IMG/VR virus record: IMGVR_UViG_3300046327_000189
Coordinates: 1-42,527 of that record
Direction: 5' to 3' (one strand)
From: a virus
Length of the DNA stretch: 42,527 nucleotides
Part shown: positions 4,197-38,850 of the stretch, one piece after another
How the letters are laid out: every line of letters starts with the position of its first letter
How positions within the stretch are numbered: the first letter of the stretch is position 1
The notes under the pieces: generated by a model
The model's input: the letters and a program-made list of their open reading frames with translations, nothing else
Databases searched by the model: none
What the model was told of the DNA's origin: nothing
Position numbers and translations under genes: made by a program

Positions 4197-6509
4197 ATGA
4201 ATCCAACAATTGAGCAGCAGAACTTTTTTGACGAAGTGACTTCTGGTTCTGGTAATGTGTTACTATCAGCAAAAGCCGGATCAGGAAAGACTTCAACTCT
4301 TGTAGAGGCAGTTAAACTTATCCCAAAAAATAAGTCTACACTAGCCTGTGCATTCAACGTCAGCATCAAAGACGAACTTACCCAGCGAATGTCTGGGATT
4401 GACATAAAGACTTGTCATGGGCTTGGATTTTCCTTACTTCGTGGTTCTCAGATGAACACGAAGAAAATGGCCGAAATCTACAATTTCCTTCTCAAAGAAG
4501 AGGCTTCTTGGCTGAAATCTCAAGAAGGGTTTGGGGAACTTCTTTGGGACATGAAAAAGTTCACTGATCTTTGTCGGTTAAATTTGGTAGAAACTGCTGA
4601 AGATTTTACAAACTGTCAGGATAAATACGGATACCGATTTACCAACGATGAGTTACGGGTGGTAAAAAGAGCTATTGAATTGGCTGATGGTGATATTAAG
4701 AATATTGATTTTGTTGATCAAATTCGTCAGCCAATTGTAAGGAATTTGAATCCTATTTTTAAATATGATTATATATACTTGGATGAGTGCCAGGACGTTA
4801 GTAAAGCACAAAGAGAACTCGTTTTTAAATTTTTAAAGCCTATGGGCCGTCTTTTTGCTGTTGGGGATAGGTGTCAACCTGCTGGTACTATGGTAACTGT
4901 TAAGGACTTTAGTCAGTCTAACTATAAAAAAGGCTTAAGAGGTTCGATACCCTCAGTATACAAGAAAGTACCTATAGAATCTTTATCAGTAGGTGACTCT
5001 GTGGTAGCTTATAGTGTCAATGATAGCTCTTTCTACAACTCGCAGAAGGTAGATGGAATAACAAAAAGACCTTATAAAGGTGATCTTATTGTGTGCAGTA
5101 CGCCTAGTGGAGCTACTTCTAAATATACCCCTAACCATATATGTATAGCATCTTTTTCTGCTTTACGGGATAAGTTTTGTGTTTACATGATGCGTAGAGG
5201 GGATAATTTTAGGATTGGGACTTGCTGTGTGGATTACCCTAAAACTAAAGTATCTGGTCTGATTAAGAGAATGCGGGATGAGGTTGCTGATTGCTGTTGG
5301 ATTTTGGGTCTTTATGATAGTAGGGCAGAATCTTATGAAATGGAACAAGCCATATCTGGTAAATTTGGCCTACCCCAAACTTTATTTAGTGGTTCTAAAA
5401 TACAGCTAAATGTAGATAGGGTTTGGAAGTTCATTGGTGATAACACTGGACGGGCCTTAGATTGTTTAGACTTTTTTGGTAAGGACATCCAATACCCGTT
5501 ATTTTTGAATGATGGTAGTAAGAAGTGTTTGTCCATGAAACGACCAATGGAAGTTCGTGCTTGTAATTTATTTAATGGTTGTTTGGTACTGCCTCATTTT
5601 GAGGGTAAGCGTCATGAGTTGAAGCAGGATTGGTGTCCTGCAACTATATCTAAGGAATTTTACGATGGGTTTGTGTACAGCTTATCGGTTAGTAAATATC
5701 AGACCTATGTTGCTGATAGTATAGTTACCCATAATTGCCAAGCTATCTACGGCTTCGCTGGTAGTGACTCTGAGAGTTTTGACACATTCTCAGCTCAATG
5801 CAAAGTAATGTCTCTAAACACTTGTTTCCGTTGTCCCAAAGAAGTTATTAAGTACGTAAATAAGATTGACCCAGACATTAAGGCATGGGAGAATGCCAAA
5901 GAAGGTCTTGTTCGTGGTGGGACTACTTTGGACAATATCAAAGCTGGTGATGCTGTACTTTGCCGGAATAATGCTCCACTGATTGAGGGGTGTTATGACA
6001 TGATCGCAAAAGGTAAAAAGGCTACAATCATGGGCCGAGATATTGGTGAGAGCCTAATCAATTTTATTGTCAGCTTCAAGTCAAATAGCCTTAGTGATCT
6101 TCAGCGCAGGATGAATGAAAAACGTCAGCAGTTGATTGATCGACTTGAGGACAAGTTTCCTTCTGAAGACGCTTACTCAAATCCTTTGTACACCAAGTTT
6201 AGTGAGCAAATGGATTGTATTACAGTTCTTATATTCAAAGTTGGCACAATTGCCTCCGTTGACAATCTCACAACTTATATTCGTCGAATTTTTTCAGACG
6301 ACAAGAACCCTGAAATTCTATTCTCTACAGTTCACCGGGCAAAGGGTTTGGAGTGGCCTAACGTTTACATCATTGAACCTAGCCTTTTAACTAAGCGCAG
6401 GCCCAAGGATAAAGATTGGCAGCATGAACAAGCCACTAACTTGGAGTATGTAGCTTATACCAGAGCGAAGGAAACATTGAACTTTGTTGTTAAACCTAAA
6501 AAACATTGA
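4197..6509 (+). CDS. Superfamily 1 (UvrD/PcrA-like) DNA helicase with an intein
   Basis: A 770-residue precursor; the mature helicase would be about 482 residues after removal of a 288-residue intein. Walker A is AKAGSGKT (residues 25-32), Walker B YIYLDECQD. Motif III is formed only after splicing, as VGDR joined to CQAIYGFAG. Motif V is FSTVHRAKGLEWPNVYI and motif VI EYVAYTRAKETL. SF1 helicases of this kind unwind DNA 3'-5' during replication or repair. The gene has its own strong promoter, and a second, Dda-like SF1 helicase lies at 23003. The splice junction falls in a nearly invariant motif, as is usual for inteins. Activity should depend on splicing. Confidence 0.9.
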   Translation: MNPTIEQQNFFDEVTSGSGNVLLSAKAGSGKTSTLVEAVKLIPKNKSTLACAFNVSIKDELTQRMSGIDIKTCHGLGFSLLRGSQMNTKKMAEIYNFLLKEEASWLKSQEGFGELLWDMKKFTDLCRLNLVETAEDFTNCQDKYGYRFTNDELRVVKRAIELADGDIKNIDFVDQIRQPIVRNLNPIFKYDYIYLDECQDVSKAQRELVFKFLKPMGRLFAVGDRCQPAGTMVTVKDFSQSNYKKGLRGSIPSVYKKVPIESLSVGDSVVAYSVNDSSFYNSQKVDGITKRPYKGDLIVCSTPSGATSKYTPNHICIASFSALRDKFCVYMMRRGDNFRIGTCCVDYPKTKVSGLIKRMRDEVADCCWILGLYDSRAESYEMEQAISGKFGLPQTLFSGSKIQLNVDRVWKFIGDNTGRALDCLDFFGKDIQYPLFLNDGSKKCLSMKRPMEVRACNLFNGCLVLPHFEGKRHELKQDWCPATISKEFYDGFVYSLSVSKYQTYVADSIVTHNCQAIYGFAGSDSESFDTFSAQCKVMSLNTCFRCPKEVIKYVNKIDPDIKAWENAKEGLVRGGTTLDNIKAGDAVLCRNNAPLIEGCYDMIAKGKKATIMGRDIGESLINFIVSFKSNSLSDLQRRMNEKRQQLIDRLEDKFPSEDAYSNPLYTKFSEQMDCITVLIFKVGTIASVDNLTTYIRRIFSDDKNPEILFSTVHRAKGLEWPNVYIIEPSLLTKRRPKDKDWQHEQATNLEYVAYTRAKETLNFVVKPKKH
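4872..5735 (+). other. Intein in the SF1 helicase (residues 226-513)
   Basis: It starts at Cys226 (CQPAGTMVTV, right after VGDR) and ends in IVTHN, with Cys514 as the +1 residue. Hint-type blocks are visible: PIESLSVGDSVVAY near the start, a TPNH block B (YTPNHICIAS), and FVYSLSVSKYQTYVADSIV before the end. The 288 residues exceed a minimal intein. The insert has no LAGLIDADG motif but contains CVYMMRRGDNFRIG, then R, E-A-x-x-CWIL and a distal E, which faintly recalls a GIY-YIG-like nuclease fold. The nuclease assignment is weak; the intein call is strong. Confidence 0.9.
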
Positions 6510-11553: not shown

Positions 11554-11951
11554 AAAAATCAATTGAGACTGGGTTTGATTCAGCAACACTTTATCAAAAT
11601 ATGTCAATACCAGAGTCAGATTGTTTTGGTAAAGAATTTGACACTCACGCTTTCGAGTGTCAGGTATGTGCTGCAAAAGCATTTTGCCAAACAATAAAAC
11701 ACCAAACAAGTAAACAACGAGTAAAAAAGATGGAAGAACAGCAGCCATTTTTTGATCTGGTTAACTTTGACGTGATTAATAGAGAGGAATGGGCTTCAGA
11801 GATTGAGTCGTGTACATACTACAAGTTTCAAATCATTGAGGTTTTAATGGCAGAAACAAAGGCAGATAAAAGACTTTGTGAGTATTGGTTTGATATTTTC
11901 TGTCAGGAATATTCTATCACAGTTCAAGAAGATGGATTATGTACAAAGTAG
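11550..11951 (+). CDS. Unknown protein with a cysteine cluster
   Basis: A 133-residue protein. Near the N-terminus the cysteines and histidines in DCFGKEFDTHAFECQVCAAK and the following AFCQT could bind a metal ion. The C-terminal half is helical and acidic (INREEWASEIESCTYYKF). It overlaps the preceding gene by 4 bases and the polymerase gene by 13 bases. Function unknown. Confidence 0.6.
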   Translation: MKKSIETGFDSATLYQNMSIPESDCFGKEFDTHAFECQVCAAKAFCQTIKHQTSKQRVKKMEEQQPFFDLVNFDVINREEWASEIESCTYYKFQIIEVLMAETKADKRLCEYWFDIFCQEYSITVQEDGLCTK

Positions 11952-13972
11952 CTATAATTGCAGACATTCCGCCTTTTGATGATAAGCAAGGTAACTTTTC
12001 TGCTGGTTCTAACCAGTTCATCCAACAACTGTTTGAGGATGGTGTAATTGATTATCCAAAAGACGAGATTTACATGGGCTACTTGTCCAATACTGATCTT
12101 AAACCAGCAGAGTTTCGTGATGTAGTTTCAGGCATTTATTTTGGTGATTGTACTCATGTAATCACCCTTGGAACAAAGGCTACTGAGGCTTTTGGAATTA
12201 AGGGTAAGTTGGGGGAAGTAGTTGACAAAGAGTTCAAGTACAAAAACCTTACAGTTCTACCTTGTTACTCTCCTAGCTCTTTGAAATACAATCCCGGATA
12301 TGCTGCTACAATCGCTTCTAGGATTCATCAAGGATTACAACTTGCTTTTGAGGGTGTTAGTAATAAAGTTGAGCGAAAGTCCACTCCATACGAAGTAATT
12401 ACATCCTATGATCGTTTGATGGAAGTTATTGAGATGGCCAAACAAACTGGTCTTTTTTCTTTCGACTTTGAGACTACTGGAATTGAATGGTGGTTAAACA
12501 AGCCTACGATTATTGGTTTTAGTATTCAACCGGGATACTCTTACATTGTTCCTTTGTTTCATTTTGAGACTGAGGTTTGGGGTAAGGCTATGTCCTATCA
12601 GGAGTATTTGATTAATAGTCAGGTTAGGACAATATTTGAGCTATTGAAGATCAACATCTTTGAGAATCCTGATGTAGTCAAGATAGCCCACAACACTCAA
12701 TTTGAATTAGGATACCTTGTAAAACATGGCGTAGATAAACACATTGGGGAGTGGCATGATACAATGTTGATGGCCCATGAACTTGATGAGAATCGTCCTA
12801 AAGGTTTGAAGCCTCTTACTGATATTTATTTCCCGGAATTTGCCGGGTATCAGTTCGAGTTGCCGAAGGATAAAACCTGGGCTGAGATTGATCTTGAGAC
12901 GTTGGCTAAGTATTGTGCCATAGATACAGACGTTACTCTTCGTCTTTACATGCGATTTACTGAAGAACTGCTGAGTGGTTCTAGTCTTACTGATACTCAG
13001 GAATGGATCGGAGGGTTTCCTGATATATGTGATGGTCGTTTATACCGCCATTATCGTAGTTATGTAATTCCAGCAATGTTTGCTACGTTTTGGGCATCTT
13101 ATCAAGGAGCTTTTGTTGATATGTTTGTGGTTGAAGAGAACATCAAACAAGCTGAGGAAAACATTAAACAGCTAAACCAAGAATTCTTTAATCATCCTGA
13201 TGTAGCTGGATTTGTGGCAAAGAAAAAGCAGGATGGTATAAATGCTGCTGTTCAGGAGTTACGAGATAAGATAAGAACCTCTATGGCTAAAGAAAAGCCA
13301 TCTCACCATTGGATTAAAAAGTGGAACGAGCAAATAGTTTTAATCCTAGACGGTCAAAAAGAAATTGAGTCTGAGTTTAGTTTGAATGCTCCGAAACAAG
13401 TACAGGAATGGTTGTTTGATTATTTGAAATTACCTGAGCGTGTAGATTCATATGGGCAATCGGAGAGAACTGGGAAACAGGACTATGTGGTTGAGTTGGC
13501 TAACATTTATGATAAGCCTGTTCTAAAGCTATTTTGTACTCTGAAGATTACAATGAAGGTTTTGAGTACCTATTTGTCTAACTTTAAGTTGTTGGCTGAT
13601 GGTTCAGGTTACATCCACACTAATTTCCATGTGGCAGGTACTACAACAGGTCGTCTGTGTGTAGGGGTAGACACTAATATAGTAACTGATAATGGTATAA
13701 TACGGATCGGTGATTTAATCCCCGCAAGTGAGGGAGTATCTGAATTAGATCAATCTATCAAAGCTATGACTCACACAGGGGAATTCCATCCAATAACCCA
13801 TGCAATAAATAAAGGGCAGGAGGAGATGTTTGAAGTGGAGCTTGAAAATGGCAAGCTTATTGAATGTACCCTTAACCATATATTTTTAACTGATCTGGGT
13901 TGGTTATCTTTAAAAGATATACTCAATTCTAATTCAGAAATACACATAATAACTTCTGATTATGGTTATTGA
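11939..13972 (+). CDS. DNA polymerase A, N-terminal piece, fused to Int-N
   Basis: A 677-residue first part of a fractured polymerase. Residues 1-140 look like a uracil-DNA-glycosylase-fold domain (THVITLGTKATEAFG, then TVLPCYSPSSLKYNPGY). Then comes a 3'-5' exonuclease: FSFDFETTGIE (D176, E178), IAHNTQFELGYL and YCAIDTDVTLRLY. The start of the polymerase domain follows, up to HVAGTTTGRL at residue 573. From Cys574 on it is the N-terminal half of an intein, ending at a stop. The rest of the polymerase is in the 14888 gene; the two should be joined by protein trans-splicing to give a polymerase of about 890 residues. Confidence 0.9.
   Translation: MYKVAIIADIPPFDDKQGNFSAGSNQFIQQLFEDGVIDYPKDEIYMGYLSNTDLKPAEFRDVVSGIYFGDCTHVITLGTKATEAFGIKGKLGEVVDKEFKYKNLTVLPCYSPSSLKYNPGYAATIASRIHQGLQLAFEGVSNKVERKSTPYEVITSYDRLMEVIEMAKQTGLFSFDFETTGIEWWLNKPTIIGFSIQPGYSYIVPLFHFETEVWGKAMSYQEYLINSQVRTIFELLKINIFENPDVVKIAHNTQFELGYLVKHGVDKHIGEWHDTMLMAHELDENRPKGLKPLTDIYFPEFAGYQFELPKDKTWAEIDLETLAKYCAIDTDVTLRLYMRFTEELLSGSSLTDTQEWIGGFPDICDGRLYRHYRSYVIPAMFATFWASYQGAFVDMFVVEENIKQAEENIKQLNQEFFNHPDVAGFVAKKKQDGINAAVQELRDKIRTSMAKEKPSHHWIKKWNEQIVLILDGQKEIESEFSLNAPKQVQEWLFDYLKLPERVDSYGQSERTGKQDYVVELANIYDKPVLKLFCTLKITMKVLSTYLSNFKLLADGSGYIHTNFHVAGTTTGRLCVGVDTNIVTDNGIIRIGDLIPASEGVSELDQSIKAMTHTGEFHPITHAINKGQEEMFEVELENGKLIECTLNHIFLTDLGWLSLKDILNSNSEIHIITSDYGY
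13658..13969 (+). other. Split intein, N-terminal half (Int-N, 104 residues)
   Basis: It begins with Cys1 in CVGVDTNIVTDNGIIRIGDL, a typical block A of Hint domains, directly after the polymerase motif TTTGRL. Block B is seen as LIECTLNHIFLTDLGWLSLK. The frame stops 104 residues after Cys1, about the length of Int-N halves in natural split inteins. Confidence 0.9.
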
Positions 13973-14927
13973 GTTTAAACATATCACTGTTTCAGGTATA
14001 AGTACCCCGGTTAAGATACTTACTAAGGAATGCTTTGATCATTATTTCATTACTGAGCTTTACACTAGAGAAAAGTTTAGGGAATTGTTAGGAGTATCTG
14101 CTAGGATGTTTAATTATAGTTACTGGCATCACTATACCAGAGATGAGAGAGCTAAACTCGCTGGCGATAAGATTTCGTTCTCTCAAAAGAGAAAGAATTC
14201 TAATGCTAAAAATGCTGGAATTCCTAGATGTTTATTGGATAAACAAGTATTAGAGGAGTTAATTTTAAAGGATTATACTGTTTTTTCAATTGCGAAGCAC
14301 CTTAAAGTAGCTCCTCAGACAGTAGAAGCTAACATAAATTATTATGGGATAGACTTACCTATAAACGGTAAACATGTACATTTCCTATCCAATGCAACTA
14401 TTCTAAACTTAAAGAAATTAGACTCTGTATTTGGTACGGACTTAGTTGGTATGCATTCCACATTAGGTGAAAGGAATCCTGTAGAAATACATAACACTTT
14501 GTTACTATTGGATGATCATTTATTATCGCTAAGGGATACTCTAAAGCATGTGACTAAGAATAATTATTCGTATGCAAAGGACAAAGGCATTGACTTACCT
14601 AATAGTAGACCTGCTGGTAGTAGGTTGAATTTTAGGTTTGGTGCTGCTTTTTCTGAGTTAGGTTATATTTGTATTTTTGAGCATAGGATTGAGGATAAGT
14701 ATTATGACATTTTGCTAGAGGGCACTAATATTCTTATTGAGATAGACCCTCAAATATATCATAATACTGAATCTTCTAGGCTTAATGATCAACACAAAGA
14801 TAATCTAGCTAAAAAGTATAACTTCGTTGTTTATAGAATAACTTCCCCCGCTGAGAAATTGTCCACCATAAGAAAACAAGTAAATCAATGTTTACAAAAT
14901 CTAAAATCAAAAGGATTACTTCAATAG
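13962..14927 (+). CDS. Vsr-like homing endonuclease between the intein halves
   Basis: A 321-residue protein encoded between Int-N and Int-C, overlapping both genes. The C-terminal part has a Vsr/PD-(D/E)XK-like core: YYDILLEGTNILIEIDPQIY with D249, E260, D262 and H267, then DNLAKKYNFVVYRITSP, as in very-short-patch-repair-type nucleases. Residues about 95-125 (LILKDYTVFSIAKHLKVAPQ) form a helix-turn-helix, likely for site recognition. A free-standing nuclease gene of this family between split-intein halves is the published fractured-gene arrangement; the nuclease would copy the whole block into intact polymerase alleles. Confidence 0.85.
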   Translation: MVIEFKHITVSGISTPVKILTKECFDHYFITELYTREKFRELLGVSARMFNYSYWHHYTRDERAKLAGDKISFSQKRKNSNAKNAGIPRCLLDKQVLEELILKDYTVFSIAKHLKVAPQTVEANINYYGIDLPINGKHVHFLSNATILNLKKLDSVFGTDLVGMHSTLGERNPVEIHNTLLLLDDHLLSLRDTLKHVTKNNYSYAKDKGIDLPNSRPAGSRLNFRFGAAFSELGYICIFEHRIEDKYYDILLEGTNILIEIDPQIYHNTESSRLNDQHKDNLAKKYNFVVYRITSPAEKLSTIRKQVNQCLQNLKSKGLLQ

Positions 14928-15001
14928 GGATGAAAACAGTAGCAGATATAACTGTAGCTGTTGATCATTCTTATGTAGGTAATGGGATTGTCAGCCATAA
15001 T
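14888..15001 (+). other. Split intein, C-terminal half (Int-C, 38 residues)
   Basis: MKTVADITVAVDHSYVGNGI is block F and IVSHN is block G with the terminal Asn; the +1 extein residue is Ser (AGC at 15002). A length of 38 is normal for Int-C. Together with Int-N it makes a mini-intein without an internal nuclease. Confidence 0.9.
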
Positions 15002-15946
15002 AGCTCAGGTAATCCAAACCTACAGAACGTAATTGCACGTAGCCCTATCAAGGACTCAGACATGCTAAACTGGGCTATCAAAGCACCTAAGAAATGTTTT
15101 GTTACTCCTCCTATGGATACACAGGGTGAATGGGCTTTCTTACAGGCTGACTATTCGCAAGCAGAACTTCGTATGATTGCTAATTTTAGCAGTGATCCAA
15201 ATATGCAAGAGGCATATCTGAGTGGGCTAGACCTTCACACAATCACTGGGGCTTCTATTGCAGGACTTACTATTGAAGAATTTCTTGAGTTGAAAACTAG
15301 CAATCCAGATAAATTTAAGCAGAACCGTCAGGATGGAAAAACTGCCAATTTTGGTATTGTCTACGATATTTCAGATGAGGGGTATCAAGAATATTATCGG
15401 CAAGCTACAAACGGTAAATTATTGCCTATAGAAATAGCTAGAGAACACAAAAAAGCTATCTTTGGTACTTACGCTAGGCTCCCATTTTGGCATAGTGAGT
15501 ATGAGTTAAAAGCCCAGACATACAAATACGTTCGTACTCTTTATGGTAGGAAACGTAGACTTCCAATGATTGATTCATATGTTTCAAGCGAAAGGTCTGC
15601 TGCAAAAAGGGCTGCAATTAACTCCCCAATTCAGGGGTCTGCTGGGGAATGGACTGTATTTGGGATGTCTGTGCTAACAAAACTAATTCCACGTCATCTT
15701 GGAAGATTCAGCAATACAATCCATGATGCAGTTTATCCATACATTCGTAAGGATTGGGTGAAAACTTTGTTGCCAATTTATAACGATGTTATGATTGACC
15801 CAATGGCTGAGTTGTACATTGACATGGATAAAGAGAAATGTGTTGTGCCTATGAAAGTAGATTGGAGTTTTACTGAAAAGTCATGGGCAGACATGGAAGA
15901 AAGTTCTGTTGAAGAGATAATCTCAAAATTTTCAATTTTATCTTGA
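14888..15946 (+). CDS. Int-C fused to DNA polymerase A, C-terminal piece
   Basis: 352 residues: 38 of Int-C, ending SHN, then the polymerase from Ser39 (SSGNPNLQNVIAR). Motif A is LQADYSQAELRM (D88), motif B RQDGKTANFGIVY (K151, Y159), motif C TIHDAVYPY (D280). In most family A enzymes motif C reads HDE; here the last residue is Ala. The catalytic aspartates are kept, so activity is expected. Its start overlaps the endonuclease gene by 40 bases. The mature enzyme forms only when Int-N and Int-C meet. Confidence 0.9.
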   Translation: MFTKSKIKRITSIGMKTVADITVAVDHSYVGNGIVSHNSSGNPNLQNVIARSPIKDSDMLNWAIKAPKKCFVTPPMDTQGEWAFLQADYSQAELRMIANFSSDPNMQEAYLSGLDLHTITGASIAGLTIEEFLELKTSNPDKFKQNRQDGKTANFGIVYDISDEGYQEYYRQATNGKLLPIEIAREHKKAIFGTYARLPFWHSEYELKAQTYKYVRTLYGRKRRLPMIDSYVSSERSAAKRAAINSPIQGSAGEWTVFGMSVLTKLIPRHLGRFSNTIHDAVYPYIRKDWVKTLLPIYNDVMIDPMAELYIDMDKEKCVVPMKVDWSFTEKSWADMEESSVEEIISKFSILS

Positions 15947-23002: not shown

Positions 23003-24313
23003 ATGTTGAATGAGCAGCAACAAAAAGCACAAGACATAATCCTTGATCATGTAAAAGGTCAAGATGATTTCAAATATGTCTACGTTACCGGAGCAGCAGG
23101 AACCGGGAAAACTTACCTTGTAGGAGATACGATGAATAAACTTAGAGGTTATTCTATTTGTATCTCAGCCCCCACACAAAGAGCAGTAGCAGAACTCAAG
23201 AAAAAATCCCCTGCTACTGATGGGGCAAGGACTGTCCATTCTCTGCTAGGTCTAAGGGATGATGAAAACAGTTTTGATTTGAATTTTATTCAACAAGCTC
23301 AGGTAGCTATTCAACAATATGACATTATCTTCATTGATGAGTCATCCATGTTGAACCATGACTTATTTGACGCTTTGATCGCATATAAGGGAGATACAAA
23401 ACTGATCTTTATTGGGGATGTTGAGCAATTAGCTCCTGTTGAGGGAGGTCAGCCAGACATCTTTGTTGATAGTGCTGATGCTCAAGGTGTTAGACTTACA
23501 AAAATTGAACGTCAGGCAAATGGTTCCCCAATAATTGATCTTGCAACTCATTTTTTGACTACTTTGGATTTTCCAGAAGAGTTTGTTTACAATGTTAATG
23601 AATCTGGGGGTACTTACATAGCCAGCTCTAAAGAGGAAGGTGATCGACAATTCATCAAGGATAAGATCAACGAATTGTTCTCTAGTAGTGAATATGCAGC
23701 CAATCCGAGTTATGCAAAAATCGCATGTGCTACCAATAAAATGGTAGCTGAGATGAACAGTTTTGTCCGTCAGGCTATTTATGGTTATGAGGCTAAGGAG
23801 AATAAAATCCTTTTTGGGGAGAAAATGATAGCTAATGGAGGTCGTCATTTAGTCGATGATAGGGTAGTTTTGGTAAACAACGACGAATTTGTTGTAAAAA
23901 GTTACCAGACTGAGATGGAAACTATTGACAATCTCCCATTCTTTTATTACCTTTGTGAAATAGCTTATACGTCTAAAGAAGGAACTGCTCAGATTCGTAT
24001 TTTACATGAGCAAAGCCAGAGTAATTACGACCGGGTAGTAGAGAAGTTTGACAAAGCTAAGAAAATGTATCCGACAAAAAGCCAAGCTTATATGGAACTT
24101 GCACGGCAATGGAAGAGTTTCTTAGCTTACTTCGCTCAGGTTGATTATGCTTATGCCTTGTCAACCCACAAACTTCAGGGCGCAACTGTTGAAAATGTAG
24201 TAGTTTTAGCAAACAATCTTCTCAGTGTCCGTCCTTGGGATTACGACACAAAACGGAGATGGATGTATACAGCAGTAACTAGGGCTAGTAAAAATGTTTA
24301 TATCATTGTTTAA
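23003..24313 (+). CDS. dda: Dda-like SF1 helicase (RecD2 group)
   Basis: A 436-residue helicase, very close in length to T4 Dda (439). Walker A VTGAAGTGKTYLV, motif Ia SAPTQRAVAELK, motif II IIFIDESSMLNHDLFDAL, motif III FIGDVEQLAPVEGG, motif V ALSTHKLQGATVENVVVL and motif VI MYTAVTRASKNVYII. Dda is a 5'-3' helicase that works at replication and recombination origins and strips proteins off DNA. It closes the replication module and follows the gp46/47-like pair, as one would expect for recombination-dependent replication. Confidence 0.85.
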   Translation: MLNEQQQKAQDIILDHVKGQDDFKYVYVTGAAGTGKTYLVGDTMNKLRGYSICISAPTQRAVAELKKKSPATDGARTVHSLLGLRDDENSFDLNFIQQAQVAIQQYDIIFIDESSMLNHDLFDALIAYKGDTKLIFIGDVEQLAPVEGGQPDIFVDSADAQGVRLTKIERQANGSPIIDLATHFLTTLDFPEEFVYNVNESGGTYIASSKEEGDRQFIKDKINELFSSSEYAANPSYAKIACATNKMVAEMNSFVRQAIYGYEAKENKILFGEKMIANGGRHLVDDRVVLVNNDEFVVKSYQTEMETIDNLPFFYYLCEIAYTSKEGTAQIRILHEQSQSNYDRVVEKFDKAKKMYPTKSQAYMELARQWKSFLAYFAQVDYAYALSTHKLQGATVENVVVLANNLLSVRPWDYDTKRRWMYTAVTRASKNVYIIV

Positions 24314-25148: not shown

Positions 25149-25234
25149 CCAAAGACGAAATAGATATTCTATGTGAATCCCTCCAATCGCTAGATAACTT
25201 GGAGTTTTGGGTCATTATCCATCCAAAGGCTTAG
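25145..25234 (+). pseudogene. Truncated duplicate of the 26123 gene start
   Basis: A 29-codon frame beginning in a 4-base overlap with the endolysin stop. MTKDEIDILCESLQSLDNLE aligns with MTKTHLDIIIEALDSLDGFE at the start of the 26123 gene, then the similarity ends (WVIIHPKA, stop). The DNA is only about 60 percent alike, so this is not a recent copy. It is most simply the broken native 5' end left behind when the HNH cassette and a related gene copy came in. Confidence 0.65.
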
Positions 25235-25268
25235 GAGTTAATTCTTACCCCCAAAGTCTTTGGATGGA
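25218..25268 (+). terminator. Hairpin between gene fragment and HNH gene
   Basis: TCCATCCAAAG (25218-25228) pairs perfectly with CTTTGGATGGA (25258-25268), followed by TTTCACTTTTTAATTT. It covers the fragment's last codons and could terminate transcription ahead of the HNH gene. No promoter for that gene was found downstream of it. Confidence 0.55.
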
Positions 25269-25296
25269 TTTCACTTTTTAATTTAAAAAATAATCT

Positions 25297-28882: not shown

Positions 28883-29642
28883 AGCCTTAGAAGATGTAAA
28901 GGCTGAGTTTACTGCTCTAGGACAAGACAGAGCTTTTCAGGGTATTGTATTAACACTATCCCAAACTTTTAAAGGACGTGCTGCTGATTTTCAGCCATTA
29001 CTGCCTCAAGCGGCAATGCCACGGGTAATAAAAAACCCTGTTCAGATTAAGTCTCTTGGCAACTCAGGGATTCAGGGTAGTCAGTCTACATCTTGCCCTA
29101 CTTGTGGGAAGGGAAGTTCAGTACCAGTTCAACAGAATAAACCTGTAAGTGGAAATATTCTTCGCTTGGCTAAGAAAGTTGAGGAGATTGCTACTGAGGT
29201 TTTTGAACAACCCTATGTTGAAACCGACAAGGACTACTCACAGCTTGTGTCTGATCTTGTTGAGTCTGCTGATATGGGTGCTTTACCATTAAGTATGCAA
29301 GAGGCTACTGAAGCTTTGGGTAAGTTCTCTGAGGCTATTAATGCCACCGCCTCGGCTATGGGACTTACAACACAAGAAGCAGCCAAGACTCTGGACGCAA
29401 TCACTGAGGATGGTATTGGCATTAGCCCTACTTACTTTGAAAATCCTGAAAAAATCCTTACTGGTGAGCCCGTAATTGAATCTAACGATTGGATTACTGT
29501 TCTGCAAGAAGTGAAGGACGTAAAACAAGGGAAGGAATTGTACAAAGCAATTACAGGAAAAGGTTATCCACCTCGTTGGCCTCAAGAACTTGATCAGATC
29601 GCAAAAGCTATTTGGCAAGCTCGCCAAAACATTGAAATCTAA
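28857..29642 (+). CDS. Unknown protein downstream of terL
   Basis: 261 residues. Residues 80-90 contain SCPTCGKG, a possible knuckle; the rest is mostly helical and acidic, with Ala/Thr-rich stretches (FSEAINATASAMGLTTQEAA). By place in the packaging region it might be structural, but no family is recognised. Its stop overlaps the next ATG by one base (TAATG). Confidence 0.6.
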   Translation: MDNITTLIKALEDVKAEFTALGQDRAFQGIVLTLSQTFKGRAADFQPLLPQAAMPRVIKNPVQIKSLGNSGIQGSQSTSCPTCGKGSSVPVQQNKPVSGNILRLAKKVEEIATEVFEQPYVETDKDYSQLVSDLVESADMGALPLSMQEATEALGKFSEAINATASAMGLTTQEAAKTLDAITEDGIGISPTYFENPEKILTGEPVIESNDWITVLQEVKDVKQGKELYKAITGKGYPPRWPQELDQIAKAIWQARQNIEI

Positions 29643-30558
29643 TGATAGTAAACTTAGGAAATAACAGAAAGTTCAAAGTCCCTCAAACGGCTTCTGACAT
29701 TACATTCCAACAGTTTGTGGATGCCACGGCTATGGAACAGGCTTTGTTGAAAGACGAAGAATTTGGGTATGATACCTTAATTGATGTCCTTACGTGTTAT
29801 TTCCCTGATGAAGACCTATCATTACTTGAGTTTGATGATGTAACTCCAATTGGCTCTAAGTTTCTAATACCCGGTGATGATTTTACGACTGTAACCCTCT
29901 ATAATCATGTAGTTGCTGTTATTAATAGTTTTAGCCTGGACAGGATAAAACAGTTCTCCATTACTCACAAAGGGGAACTGTTTTTCATTGCTGCTCAAGA
30001 GGAGATTTTCCCTACCCGAAAATTGACGGTAGGGGAATCCCTCACTATGTTAGAATTGTCCAGAAGAGTTCAAAAACTTGTGGATAAGAAAGGAGACACT
30101 GATGGTAATTATGAATTTAGCCTAGGTCTTGAGGAGATTGCGATTCTAGCTCGTAAAAAGGGAGAGATGTTACCAATCAAATCAAAAGATCGCACTGAGT
30201 TCATAAAACAAAGGGCTGAGTTCTTTTCTGACTGTCCCTTATCTGAGATTCTAAAGATCAGGTTTTTTTTTACACATTTCTCGCGTCGCTACATGAAAAC
30301 CCTAGATATAAACCATTCTGGGAACGTGTTGAGTTTTCAACGCCGAGTACCAAAGAGGAACGAAAGGCGAAAGCGAAAGCGATAGAGATAGGTGAACGAA
30401 AAGCTGAGGTTTTAGGGTGGATGGGAGTACTTGATACAATCATAGAGAACAAATGGTTTTCTGGAAGTTATCCAACCCCATTAGAATCAGCTTGGTTAGG
30501 AGATTTTGAGACAGCAGTTGAGTTAATAGCTAGATTAAATGTTTCTCAAGCTCAGTGA
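29642..30558 (+). CDS. Unknown protein read through a -1 shift at T9
   Basis: In the first frame the ORF ends at 30385 (247 residues), but from the run of nine T (30263-30271) on, the -1 frame looks far better: it stays open for 95 codons to 30558 and reads as normal protein (YTFLASLHENPRYKPFWERV, then VLGWMGVLDTIIENKWFSG). The zero-frame tail is a run of basic residues (RRVPKRNERRKRKR), typical of out-of-frame sequence. The joined product would be about 305 residues. Either a programmed slip at T TTT TTT or a miscounted homopolymer explains it. Possibly structural, by position. Confidence 0.65.
30263..30271 (+). other. Nine-T slippery run, -1 shift site
   Basis: TTTTTTTTT in frame as three Phe codons. 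Slipping back one base yields TAC as the next codon and opens the downstream 95 codons. One more or two fewer T in the true genome would have the same effect without any slip. Confidence 0.6.
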
Positions 30559-30574
30559 AAGATTTTCGTGATTT

Positions 30575-30608
30575 CTTTACATGTTTTAAACTTCATGTAA
30601 AGTTTTTT
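30575..30608 (+). terminator. Terminator of the terminase-region operon
   Basis: CTTTACATG (30575-30583) pairs with CATGTAAAG (30594-30602), followed by TTTTTTC. It comes 17 bases after the stop codon of the shifted frame at 30558, which also supports that longer frame as the real end of the gene. Confidence 0.8.
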
Positions 30609-30629
30609 CAAAATTTTTTACATTAGGTA

Positions 30630-30660
30630 TTGACTTTTTAAATTTTACTCTGCATCTTTG
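30630..30660 (+). promoter_or_regulatory. N18 promoter of the giant RNA
   Basis: TTGAC (30630-30634), 18 bases, CATCTTTG (30653-30660). Only the first base of the -7 box differs from TAnnTTTG. It lies between the upstream terminator and the first hairpin of the RNA, giving a start near 30667. Confidence 0.75.
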
Positions 30661-30666
30661 TATCAG

Positions 30667-31945
30667 CGAAATCGGGATGTCTACCTGAATACTTTTTTCA
30701 GATATTCTGAAAAAAGAACCAAATTCACGCAAATGCGATAAAGAAATTGGCTCCTTGAGAACTCGGTGATTGCTTACTCTGAGATGAGTTGATTATCCTA
30801 AATGAAGGACATCAAACCGAGGAAAAGAAAAATGAAAGTGACAGTCTGACTAAAGGCGAAATAGCGGCACTCAGGTTGCTGCATCGAGAGCCACGAAGGA
30901 GAGAGTAGAAAACTCCGATAAAACCTAGACCGTCCTTTCTAAGATGCAGGTATAGGACAGCATAAATAAGTTGTGGGAACATCGGGTAAGCCACAAAAGC
31001 TGTTAGACCTCCCGACACGGTGAGCAACCGGACACTGGGAAAGGCTAGGAGGTCTTATTTATGTGGTGCAAGCACTTTTCAGTGACCTTTCAAACACTCA
31101 GAAAAGCAGGAGAACGCTCTTTATCATCTTAGTTGAGAGTTTCAACAGATGTGACTTTGGCCAGGGGATGACCTAGAAATAGGGATTGAATAGGAACCCT
31201 ACCCACGAAAGTGAACAACGTAAATAGACATAAATCTGGTGAGCCTTAGCTTTTTGTAGGTTAGAATCCTACCTATCCTTAAGAGGGGTAGTGCGTGGAT
31301 GGTAAGTCACGGCCAGATAGGTTTAGGCTCAGAAATGAGAAAGCCCTTAATCAGCGGAGATAGCTGAGTTTAGTCAAAGGGATTTGAGGCATTACTTTAC
31401 CTCATAAACCTTCTGATCTGACAAATCAGATTGTAGTCCTCTTAGGATTATAGGTATCTAAGAGTATTTAATGTGGCACACACAGAAAACCTATTGACAT
31501 TTTACTGATTTTCCACAGCGAAAAAATCAGTCTGGGTTTAGGGATTTCTTACAGCCTAAGAAATTCAAATCTTTCGGGAGCGTCTGGGAAAGACAGTTAG
31601 GGAACCCTGACCTAACAAATTCTAGTGTATTAGTTCAGTTGGTAGAATGCTACATTTGGGATGTAGAGGTCGTTGGTTCGAGTCCAACATATGCTACGAT
31701 GTCAGGTCGCGCCTGAACGATTTGAGTTTACCGGAGTACCGTTAAAGCAGAGTTCTCAACCAGAAAAACAAAAAGACTCTGCCTAATATTTGCCTGTATA
31801 GGCTTTATAGATTAAACGGCAGGGGTTAGGGAAAACCCTGACTGAGAAATAAGACACAATAAAATCTCAGTAGTCACTATCTTTGTGTTGAGATAGCTAT
31901 AGTAGGAGGATAAGAATGCCTCCCCCTGGCACGTTTAATCGACAA
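30667..31945 (+). ncRNA. Giant structured RNA (GOLLD/ROOL-like) with embedded tRNA
   Basis: About 1.28 kb with no convincing protein frame and its own promoter. It is packed with perfect stems: 30692-30701/30707-30716, 30961-30970/31053-31062 closing a multibranch with AGACCTCC/GGAGGTCT inside, CTCTTAG/CTAAGAG (31440 region), ATTTCTTA/TAAGAAAT (31545 region), GTTAGG/CCTAAC just before the tRNA, TCAGG/CCTGA just after it, GCAGAGT/ACTCTGC, ACTGAGA/TCTCAGT, GGAGG/CCTCC, and a closing stem GATTAAACG (31810-31818)/CGTTTAATC (31932-31940). A tRNA-Pro lies inside. Size, density of folding, phage setting and tRNA match the known giant ornate RNAs; class membership was not tested. Confidence 0.8.
31624..31696 (+). 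tRNA. tRNA-Pro (anticodon UGG)
   Basis: A full 73-base cloverleaf: acceptor AGTGTAT/ATATGCT (two G-U type pairs), D arm GTTC...GAAT, anticodon stem CTACA/TGTAG with loop TTTGGGA (anticodon 31657-31659), variable AGGTC, T arm GTTGG-TTCGAGT-CCAAC, discriminator A. The 3' CCA is not encoded (CGA follows). It is flanked by stems of the giant RNA on both sides, so it must be cut out of a longer transcript. Confidence 0.9.
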
Positions 31946-31958
31946 AAACAAAAGAATT

Positions 31959-32249
31959 ATGGACTTTTCTACTATTCTACCTGAAATAAAAGATGGTTAC
32001 CCAGTTCGTAGGAGGGCTTGGCCTGATGGTCTATTTGTTTTTATGCAAATTCCATCTATCATAAACCCAGATATTATTCCGAAAATGACCTCTTTATCCG
32101 ATCAAGTTAAAGAAGTTTTAGTGGATAGACGACTACCATTAGTATACCAAGACCAATTAGCGTTGTGTTACCCTAATAATGTAATTGTATCCTACGCTTT
32201 AAATGAGCAGGATATTTTTAACAACGACTGGGAAATTTATACAAAATGA
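31959..32249 (+). CDS. Tad2-like anti-Thoeris protein (DUF2829)
   Basis: 96 residues. MDFSTILPEIKDGYPVRRRA with WPDGLFVFMQIP gives the family's start (G-x-x-V-x-R-x-x-W), then MTSLSDQVKEVL, and the end fits: SYALNEQDIFNNDWEIY (the usual DxxxxDW). Tad2 proteins of this family bind the signal nucleotide made by Thoeris TIR proteins and block that defence. It begins 14 bases after the giant RNA's closing stem, without its own promoter or an intervening terminator, so it may ride on that transcript. Confidence 0.7.
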   Translation: MDFSTILPEIKDGYPVRRRAWPDGLFVFMQIPSIINPDIIPKMTSLSDQVKEVLVDRRLPLVYQDQLALCYPNNVIVSYALNEQDIFNNDWEIYTK

Positions 32250-37668: not shown

Positions 37669-37702
37669 AAAGCCTCTCAAGAATACATCCCTGAGAGGCT
37701 TT
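37669..37702 (-). terminator. Terminator hairpin between leftward genes
   Basis: AAAGCCTCTCA (37669-37679) and TGAGAGGCTTT (37692-37702) are perfect complements. Read leftward it follows the 37707 gene; the following T-rich stretch is interrupted by A, so termination may be partial. Confidence 0.6.
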
Positions 37703-37706
37703 TGGT

Positions 37707-37919
37707 TTAGATAACGAGGACTTTTTGACCAATTAGATGTTCTATTGACCTATCTATAAAAACGCTACAACCAGTTTCTTCATCGTTTAATACTTTCTCT
37801 TCAAAGAAAGGTTCTCGATAATTATCATCTTCCATCCTATCCATATAGTAGCTGATAATATCAGTAAAGCCCTCAGCTTTCTTTTCTTCAAGAAGCTTGA
37901 TAAAATCATCAATTTTCAT
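37707..37919 (-). CDS. Small acidic protein
   Basis: 70 residues from the ATG at 37919; the frame extends upstream to 37997 but that part overlaps the preceding gene deeply. MKIDDFIKLLEEKKAEGFTD, then acidic DRMEDDNYREPFFEEKVLND. Function unknown. Confidence 0.55.
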   Translation of the reverse strand: MKIDDFIKLLEEKKAEGFTDIISYYMDRMEDDNYREPFFEEKVLNDEETGCSVFIDRSIEHLIGQKVLVI

Positions 37920-38133
37920 TTTGTTTTTCTTTTTCGCGTTCTGAGATAAATTCTTTATATAGGAACCAAGAATTACGAGCAGCCAACATAAATCCATTAT
38001 GTTTCAATGGGGAGTTATGTAGCCAATAAGTAGCCACTCTTGAGGGCTTTTCAGGCCATTGACCTTGGGTATTGATTGATACTGAGCACCAATGCAACCA
38101 CTCAGGCCAAGTTTTGATTGTTGCTGTTTCCAT
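37909..38133 (-). CDS. Small protein, start moved by promoter position
   Basis: 74 residues from the ATG at 38133. The frame is open to a TTG at 38178, but the N18 promoter (38148-38178) lies inside that stretch, with the transcript start near 38141, so the longer version could not be made from it. WPEWLHWCSVSINTQGQWPE and ARNSWFLYKEFISEREKEKQ; Trp-rich, unknown function. Confidence 0.6.
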   Translation of the reverse strand: METATIKTWPEWLHWCSVSINTQGQWPEKPSRVATYWLHNSPLKHNGFMLAARNSWFLYKEFISEREKEKQNEN

Positions 38134-38147
38134 TGTTGAATTTTCAT

Positions 38148-38178
38148 CAAAGTTAATCCTTTTCATAACAATAGTCAA
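38148..38178 (-). promoter_or_regulatory. Leftward N18 promoter
   Basis: Read on the minus strand: TTGAC (38178-38174), 18 bases, TAACTTTG (38155-38148), 15 bases before the ATG at 38133. Confidence 0.75.
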
Positions 38179-38199
38179 GTTTTTAATTAAAAAAAAAAT

Positions 38200-38213
38200 G
38201 GATTATACAACGA
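38200..38213 (-). repeat. 14-base intergenic repeat, copy 1
   Basis: TCGTTGTATAATCC on the minus strand, identical to 41567-41580. It lies between a leftward terminator and the next leftward promoter. Confidence 0.6.
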
Positions 38214-38233
38214 GACTTTTTGTAATTAAATAG

Positions 38234-38288
38234 AAAAGCCTTAATTTCTAGCTGATCCCTAAAGAATCTTTAAGAGATTAAGGCTTTT
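38234..38288 (-). terminator. Leftward terminator
   Basis: AAAAGCCTTAAT (38234-38245) pairs with ATTAAGGCTTTT (38277-38288), a perfect 12-bp stem with T-rich flanks on both strands. It ends the leftward unit that begins at the 40058-40088 promoter. Confidence 0.75.
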
Positions 38289-38314
38289 AAGTATGCGCCA
38301 AAGTCAATCCAGTT

Positions 38315-38548
38315 TTATAAGTAAATTTTCTCAATCTGGATATACCCCTTGTCATCATATCTTGGTTCATCCATTAAGTCTTTTATGTAACTTTCGGCTG
38401 ACTCTTTGCTAGGATAGGTTTCAACAGTTCTTTTGTCAAATTCAGTAGACCAAAAGTATCTTGAAGTGCTCCAATCATCTGGCCAAACCCGGTTGTAGTA
38501 TTCTTTTTGCCCTTCAAAGGTTCTAGTAATGATATAAGTCTTTTTCAT
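38315..38548 (-). CDS. Small unknown protein
   Basis: 77 residues, aromatic-rich (YYNRVWPDDWSTSRYFWSTE), with a helical middle (YPSKESAESYIKDLMDE). It starts in a TAATG overlap with the gene before it and is the last gene of its unit. Function unknown. Confidence 0.6.
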   Translation of the reverse strand: MKKTYIITRTFEGQKEYYNRVWPDDWSTSRYFWSTEFDKRTVETYPSKESAESYIKDLMDEPRYDDKGYIQIEKIYL

Positions 38549-38850
38549 TATTTAGGATTTACATCAAGTTCAAGAATAGAGTTACAATCAATAGTTTTCC
38601 AAGTAGAATCAACAACAAAAGCCTTTATGTCTAATGTGTCGCTTTTACCCATTAGAATCATATAGCCTTTTTGATTGTGTTGAGGTCGGTTATTTACTAA
38701 GTAAGTCACCCTGCAATTCATTGTATCAACTGGATTGTACAACGAAAGGTTTGATTTTTGATTATTAGCTAAGCTTTCTAGATAGATATTAGTACCTACT
38801 AAGATACCAAATCCTATAATCAAAACTCCAATAGTTTTAATCCAGTTCAT
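38548..38850 (-). CDS. Membrane-anchored unknown protein
   Basis: 100 residues with an N-terminal membrane helix (TIGVLIIGFGILVGTNIYL) and a beta-rich outside domain (YMILMGKSDTLDIKAFVVD). Function unknown. It overlaps the preceding gene by 14 bases. Confidence 0.6.
   Translation of the reverse strand: MNWIKTIGVLIIGFGILVGTNIYLESLANNQKSNLSLYNPVDTMNCRVTYLVNNRPQHNQKGYMILMGKSDTLDIKAFVVDSTWKTIDCNSILELDVNPK

Follow-up and report, generated by a model that had tools for sequence, protein, structure and literature searches.

The phage sequence studied here contains a noncoding unit of about 1.3 kb (30665–31958, + strand), best read as an orphan: a large phage RNA that contains a tRNA and is comparable in kind to GOLLD and to the lncRNAs of Staphylococcus phage K. 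In our estimate the chances are about even that the region specifies a discrete large noncoding structural RNA of a Bacteroidota phage, which is itself the product and works in a GOLLD-like manner. This reading starts from three solid observations: an unusually large gap between genes, a phage promoter at its beginning and a helical arm that carries a tRNA.

The window, i.e. the whole stretch of DNA analysed, is a 42.5-kb virus record of IMG/VR, and with an overlapping 63.9-kb IMG/VR contig the phage sequence reaches ~77 kb in all. Relatives of its terminase, at <60% identity, occur in phages of Phocaeicola, Bacteroides, Flavobacterium and Polaribacter, and the host is probably a member of the Bacteroidota. 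Diverged terminases of IMG/VR are at best about 37–40% identical to it, indicating a phage with no close sequenced relative except identical contigs. An identical copy of the 1.4-kb region is found in one other IMG/VR contig and half of it in a second, which rules out an assembly error. The window holds several other features of its own. DNA polymerase I is encoded in two genes (11939–15946), the first ending with the start of an intein and the second opening with the end of one, with a separate endonuclease-like gene between the two halves (13962–14927), an arrangement that we take to resemble a fractured gene with a split intein. The helicase gene (4197–6509) has an apparent in-frame intein of about 280 aa with a THNC motif at its end, and a strong hairpin, an inverted repeat with 25-nt arms (84% complementary) and a 3-nt loop, lies between two genes at 25217–25269.

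Between the frame upstream of the noncoding unit, whose last codon ends at 30558, and the following gene, which begins at 31959, there is an ORF-free gap of 1.40 kb (30559–31958) with 24–35 stops in each of the six frames. The median codon-usage score, taken as the best of six frames in 150-nt windows, was −0.30 for the gap, compared with 0.21 for the genes and −0.33 for shuffled sequence, and a coding signal was missing in nearly every window and frame. The three forward frames gave no PHROG match at E 1. The sequence-only reading had reported ~1.3 kb devoid of a protein frame, and the stops, the shuffled-level coding score and the lack of forward-frame PHROG matches bear this out; the latter two also led us to reject a pseudogene. 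The gap is A-rich in its noncoding body and has a G+C content of 40–42% (41.5% for the body, 30641–31958), as opposed to 20–34% in the other intergenic gaps of the contig. No other ORF-free gap within the 77 kb of the phage seen comes near it in size, and it exceeds all those in about 95 loci around related terminases. A synteny search of 80 loci, based on a terminase alignment, revealed no comparable gap. Taken with the absence of a terminator before 31959, the lack of coding potential and the G+C content suggest a noncoding transcript unit spanning 30665–31958.

The sequence-only reading had placed a terminator and then a strong promoter ahead of this unit, and both were found. The upstream operon is closed by a terminator-like hairpin (CTTTACATG/CATGTAAAG, followed by a T run) at 30575–30610 on the + strand, with 9/9 pairs in the inverted repeat at 30575–30602. 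Ahead of the hairpin, a 247-aa frame (29642–30385) is overlapped by an open −1 frame of coding-like composition (0.09) that reaches 30558, an arrangement (29642–30558) suggestive of programmed −1 frameshifting as in tail assembly chaperones. The promoter (30630–30660, + strand) reads TTGAC-N18-CATCTTTG, conforms to the Bacteroidota −33/−7 type and is one of 11 contig sites matching TTGAC-N18-YAnnTTTG, where 0.19 are expected by chance and none of 100 shuffles reached 11. These sites constitute a promoter set of the phage; most are intergenic or at gene starts and one is intragenic (23925–23955). At all four other intergenic or gene-start sites on the + strand an ATG follows 18–33 nt past the promoter, whereas the promoter at 30630–30660 precedes only a three-codon ATG frame, behind which 1.28 kb are noncoding. 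The short frame (ATG TCT ACC TGA, 30677–30688) starts 17 nt past the promoter, a spacing like that of the other genes of the phage.

The first gene downstream (31959–32249, + strand) encodes a Tad2-like, i.e. anti-Thoeris, protein (PF11195, 39.9 bits, cut-off 25). The stretch 30700–31959 showed no intrinsic terminator, nor was there a promoter of the common type between the noncoding unit and the Tad2-like gene, and the main rival explanation is thus that of a long operon leader. The 1.3 kb would then be the tRNA-bearing 5' leader of the operon that opens with the Tad2-like gene, and cutting or folding of this leader would control how much of the anti-defence genes is expressed, or when. In keeping with this, the promoter at 30630 is followed by no other of its type until 33958, past 31959, and the ATG of the Tad2-like gene follows 18 nt after the last helix of the noncoding unit, across an A-rich spacer like those before other genes. 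The short promoter-to-ATG distances at the other intergenic + strand sites argue against it, and the regulatory leaders known to us are far shorter than 1.3 kb. We regard the leader as improbable, albeit the strongest of the competing explanations.

A complete tRNA-Pro, as had been recognized from the sequence, lies inside the unit at 31624–31697 (+ strand; identified by ARAGORN and by Rfam with 64.8 bits). It has the anticodon UGG, an acceptor pair A1–U72 and no encoded CCA, and is the only tRNA found within the 77 kb seen of the phage, a genome that may be incomplete. The sequences on either side of it form a 22-nt helix (31561–31582/31708–31729) that was matched by none of 400 flank shuffles with flanks of 80, 120 and 200 nt, and the whole arm (31555–31735, + strand) folds with a z of −3.2 (0/200 shuffles). 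Since the flanks pair far beyond chance, the tRNA is placed at the tip of the arm; arm and cloverleaf are compatible, the formation of both costing 2.3 kcal/mol. The acceptor pair is unusual, as C1–G72 is found in the tRNA-Pro genes of all four other phages compared. Positions 72 and 73 are major elements of proline identity in E. coli. Given this role, charging of the tRNA by the host enzyme is doubtful, while the main proline codons of the phage, CCA plus CCT, make an ordinary translational role also possible. That an embedded tRNA implies either cleavage of the RNA or a decoy, as proposed earlier, is a reasonable inference, to which the A1–U72 pair adds a little. A bolder and rather unlikely interpretation is that of a giant structural RNA of a new class, from a Bacteroidota phage, unrelated to GOLLD and ROOL and encoded together with a Tad2-like gene, in which the tRNA with its non-standard acceptor end would be a permanent, unreleased domain, perhaps acting as a decoy or binding to the ribosome or to enzymes that act on tRNA.

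Folding beyond the tRNA arm stands out mainly at the 3' end. A compact domain (31804–31946, + strand), closed by the helix 31810–31818/31932–31940, has a z of −5.4 (0/200 shuffles); its borders were picked after folding, and z ≤ −5 was reached by one of 285 control windows of 143 nt. The closing helix ends 18 nt ahead of the Tad2-like ATG. Near the 5' end there is an 11-bp hairpin (30692–30716, + strand; z −2.5 for 30664–30760). Local folding in 143-nt windows is otherwise ordinary, with a mean z of −0.76 for the region and −0.69 for the remaining contig, and the z of the whole region (−3.3) is within the range of values found for ten coding windows (0.1 to −10). When ungapped helices were ranked, all top ones except the helix enclosing the tRNA scored no better than those of shuffled sequence. 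Only the tRNA-flank helix and the 3' domain beat chance. Among the candidate long-range helices is 30755–30764/31750–31759. A 957-nt stretch with a z of −3.95 at first looked like good proof of an ornate fold, and folding energy was dropped as an argument after the controls. The "giant ornate RNA" of the sequence-only reading is therefore overstated: its two long-range stems are present (30961–30970/31054–31063 and that closing the 3' domain), and the tRNA helix and 3' domain stand, whereas its dozens of perfect stems are at the level expected by chance.

Such ordinary folding everywhere except in the tRNA arm, 5' hairpin and 3' domain would suit an arrangement in which a tRNA gene is accompanied by a few small stable RNAs, as in phage tRNA clusters, with the rest being spacer and no single large RNA. 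A long spacer of 41% G+C is odd for a phage whose other gaps have 20–34%, and no more tRNA relics or Rfam RNAs were detected in the region, even at E 10. Small RNAs are thus doubtful, somewhat more so than the leader. A decayed tRNA array was rejected, no further tRNA being found at E 10; a T-arm-like hairpin at 31256–31272 is the sole relic-like piece in the region. It is very unlikely that the stretch is a protein gene in decay or a DNA element, for example an origin or a packaging site. Its location 2.3 kb past the terminase gene and a G+C content near that of coding sequence would fit, but codon-level signal is absent from nearly all windows and frames, the forward frames lack PHROG matches and the stretch has its own promoter.

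The discrete noncoding RNA had been proposed to be GOLLD- or ROOL-like, and in kind this is the best-supported reading: the unit is large, phage-borne and noncoding, it has its own promoter and there is a tRNA inside. Membership in either family fared otherwise. The GOLLD model (RF02032, gathering threshold 150 bits), which covers the conserved region, had no match in the region at E ≤ 10 with lax filters, nor anywhere in the contig, and the ROOL model (RF03087, gathering threshold 99.1 bits) likewise found nothing at that E value under lax filtering. For ROOL, the control of a second search matched no genome, and the weight rests on the Rfam search of the region at E 10, which returned no RNA besides tRNA-Pro, whether at the gathering threshold or at E 10. 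An assignment of the RNA to GOLLD or to ROOL is unwarranted. Covarying helices and kissing loops are further features of GOLLD.

GOLLD is a large phage-borne noncoding RNA whose linkers sometimes carry phage tRNAs, and the solved GOLLD structure is a 14-mer cage of an 833-nt RNA (PMC12286853). The present unit shares the setting, being part of a virus record with the tRNA-Pro inside it, and differs in its length of ~1.29 kb, in the position of the tRNA, which caps a long arm ~960 nt from the predicted 5' end, and in the lack of any sequence or structure-model match to RF02032. ROOL, too, is a large noncoding phage RNA and is often near tRNA genes; in the present phage the unit itself contains the tRNA, no model match is seen, and instead of a tRNA island there is one tRNA in 77 kb of a possibly incomplete genome.

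Also comparable are lnc001 (13595–14229) and lnc002 (37679–38832) of Staphylococcus phage K, RNAs of 0.6–1.15 kb that lie beside tRNAs, are abundantly transcribed as verified by RNA-seq, and were likened to GOLLD and ROOL by their authors (PMC9241854). Both are unmatched in Rfam 15, and their local folding energies are ordinary too, so neither feature counts against a real RNA in the present phage. The tRNAs flank the phage K RNAs rather than being inside them, and blastn shows no sequence relation. Relatives of lnc002 are found in hundreds of phages and those of the present RNA in none; the >300 relatives in Staphylococcus phages, down to 60–80% identity, would be enough for a covariation study of lnc002.

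A blastn search of 50,697 phage and 72,556 plasmid records with the RNA gave tRNA matches or chance matches only. The same approach recovered relatives of lnc002 down to 60–80% identity, and its silence is thus informative for the phages of the searched collection. Thirty degenerate seeds searched against IMG/VR as pseudo-protein in five of six frames retrieved identical copies only, and 12 seeds in two of six frames yielded no diverged homolog among 84,980 GTDB genomes; the seed method requires conserved stretches of 24 nt and is weaker than blastn. As every copy found is identical, a new class is not demonstrable from what amounts to one sequence, and the RNA is a good orphan candidate, not a demonstrated new class.

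The combined results suggest a model for the discrete RNA. Transcription would begin near 30665, about 5–8 nt past a standard phage promoter, and run for about 1.3 kb. The RNA would bear the tRNA-Pro on the tip of the ~22-nt helical arm and close with the compact helix-bounded 3' domain, 18 nt ahead of the Tad2-like gene. A long structural RNA may in this way display or shelter a tethered tRNA, as GOLLD would, while part of the transcripts may continue into the anti-defence operon and cutting at the tRNA or the 3' domain may part the pieces. The model draws on the shuffled-level coding score, the high G+C of the largest gap and a promoter lacking the usual nearby gene, on the tRNA arm (0/400) and the 3' domain (z −5.4), and on the precedent of the phage K lncRNAs, which are transcribed, tRNA-adjacent and absent from Rfam with ordinary folding. 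It is weakened by the fact that most of the region folds no better than the rest of the contig, by the lack of a diverged homolog, and hence of covariation, and by the lack of a 3' terminator.

GOLLD and ROOL assemble into RNA cages of enigmatic purpose, for which tethered phage tRNAs have been proposed as possible cargo. If the discrete-RNA model is true, an unrelated phage RNA with a tRNA on a dedicated arm would provide independent support for a tRNA-linked function, and it would mean that phage RNAs of this kind escape Rfam.
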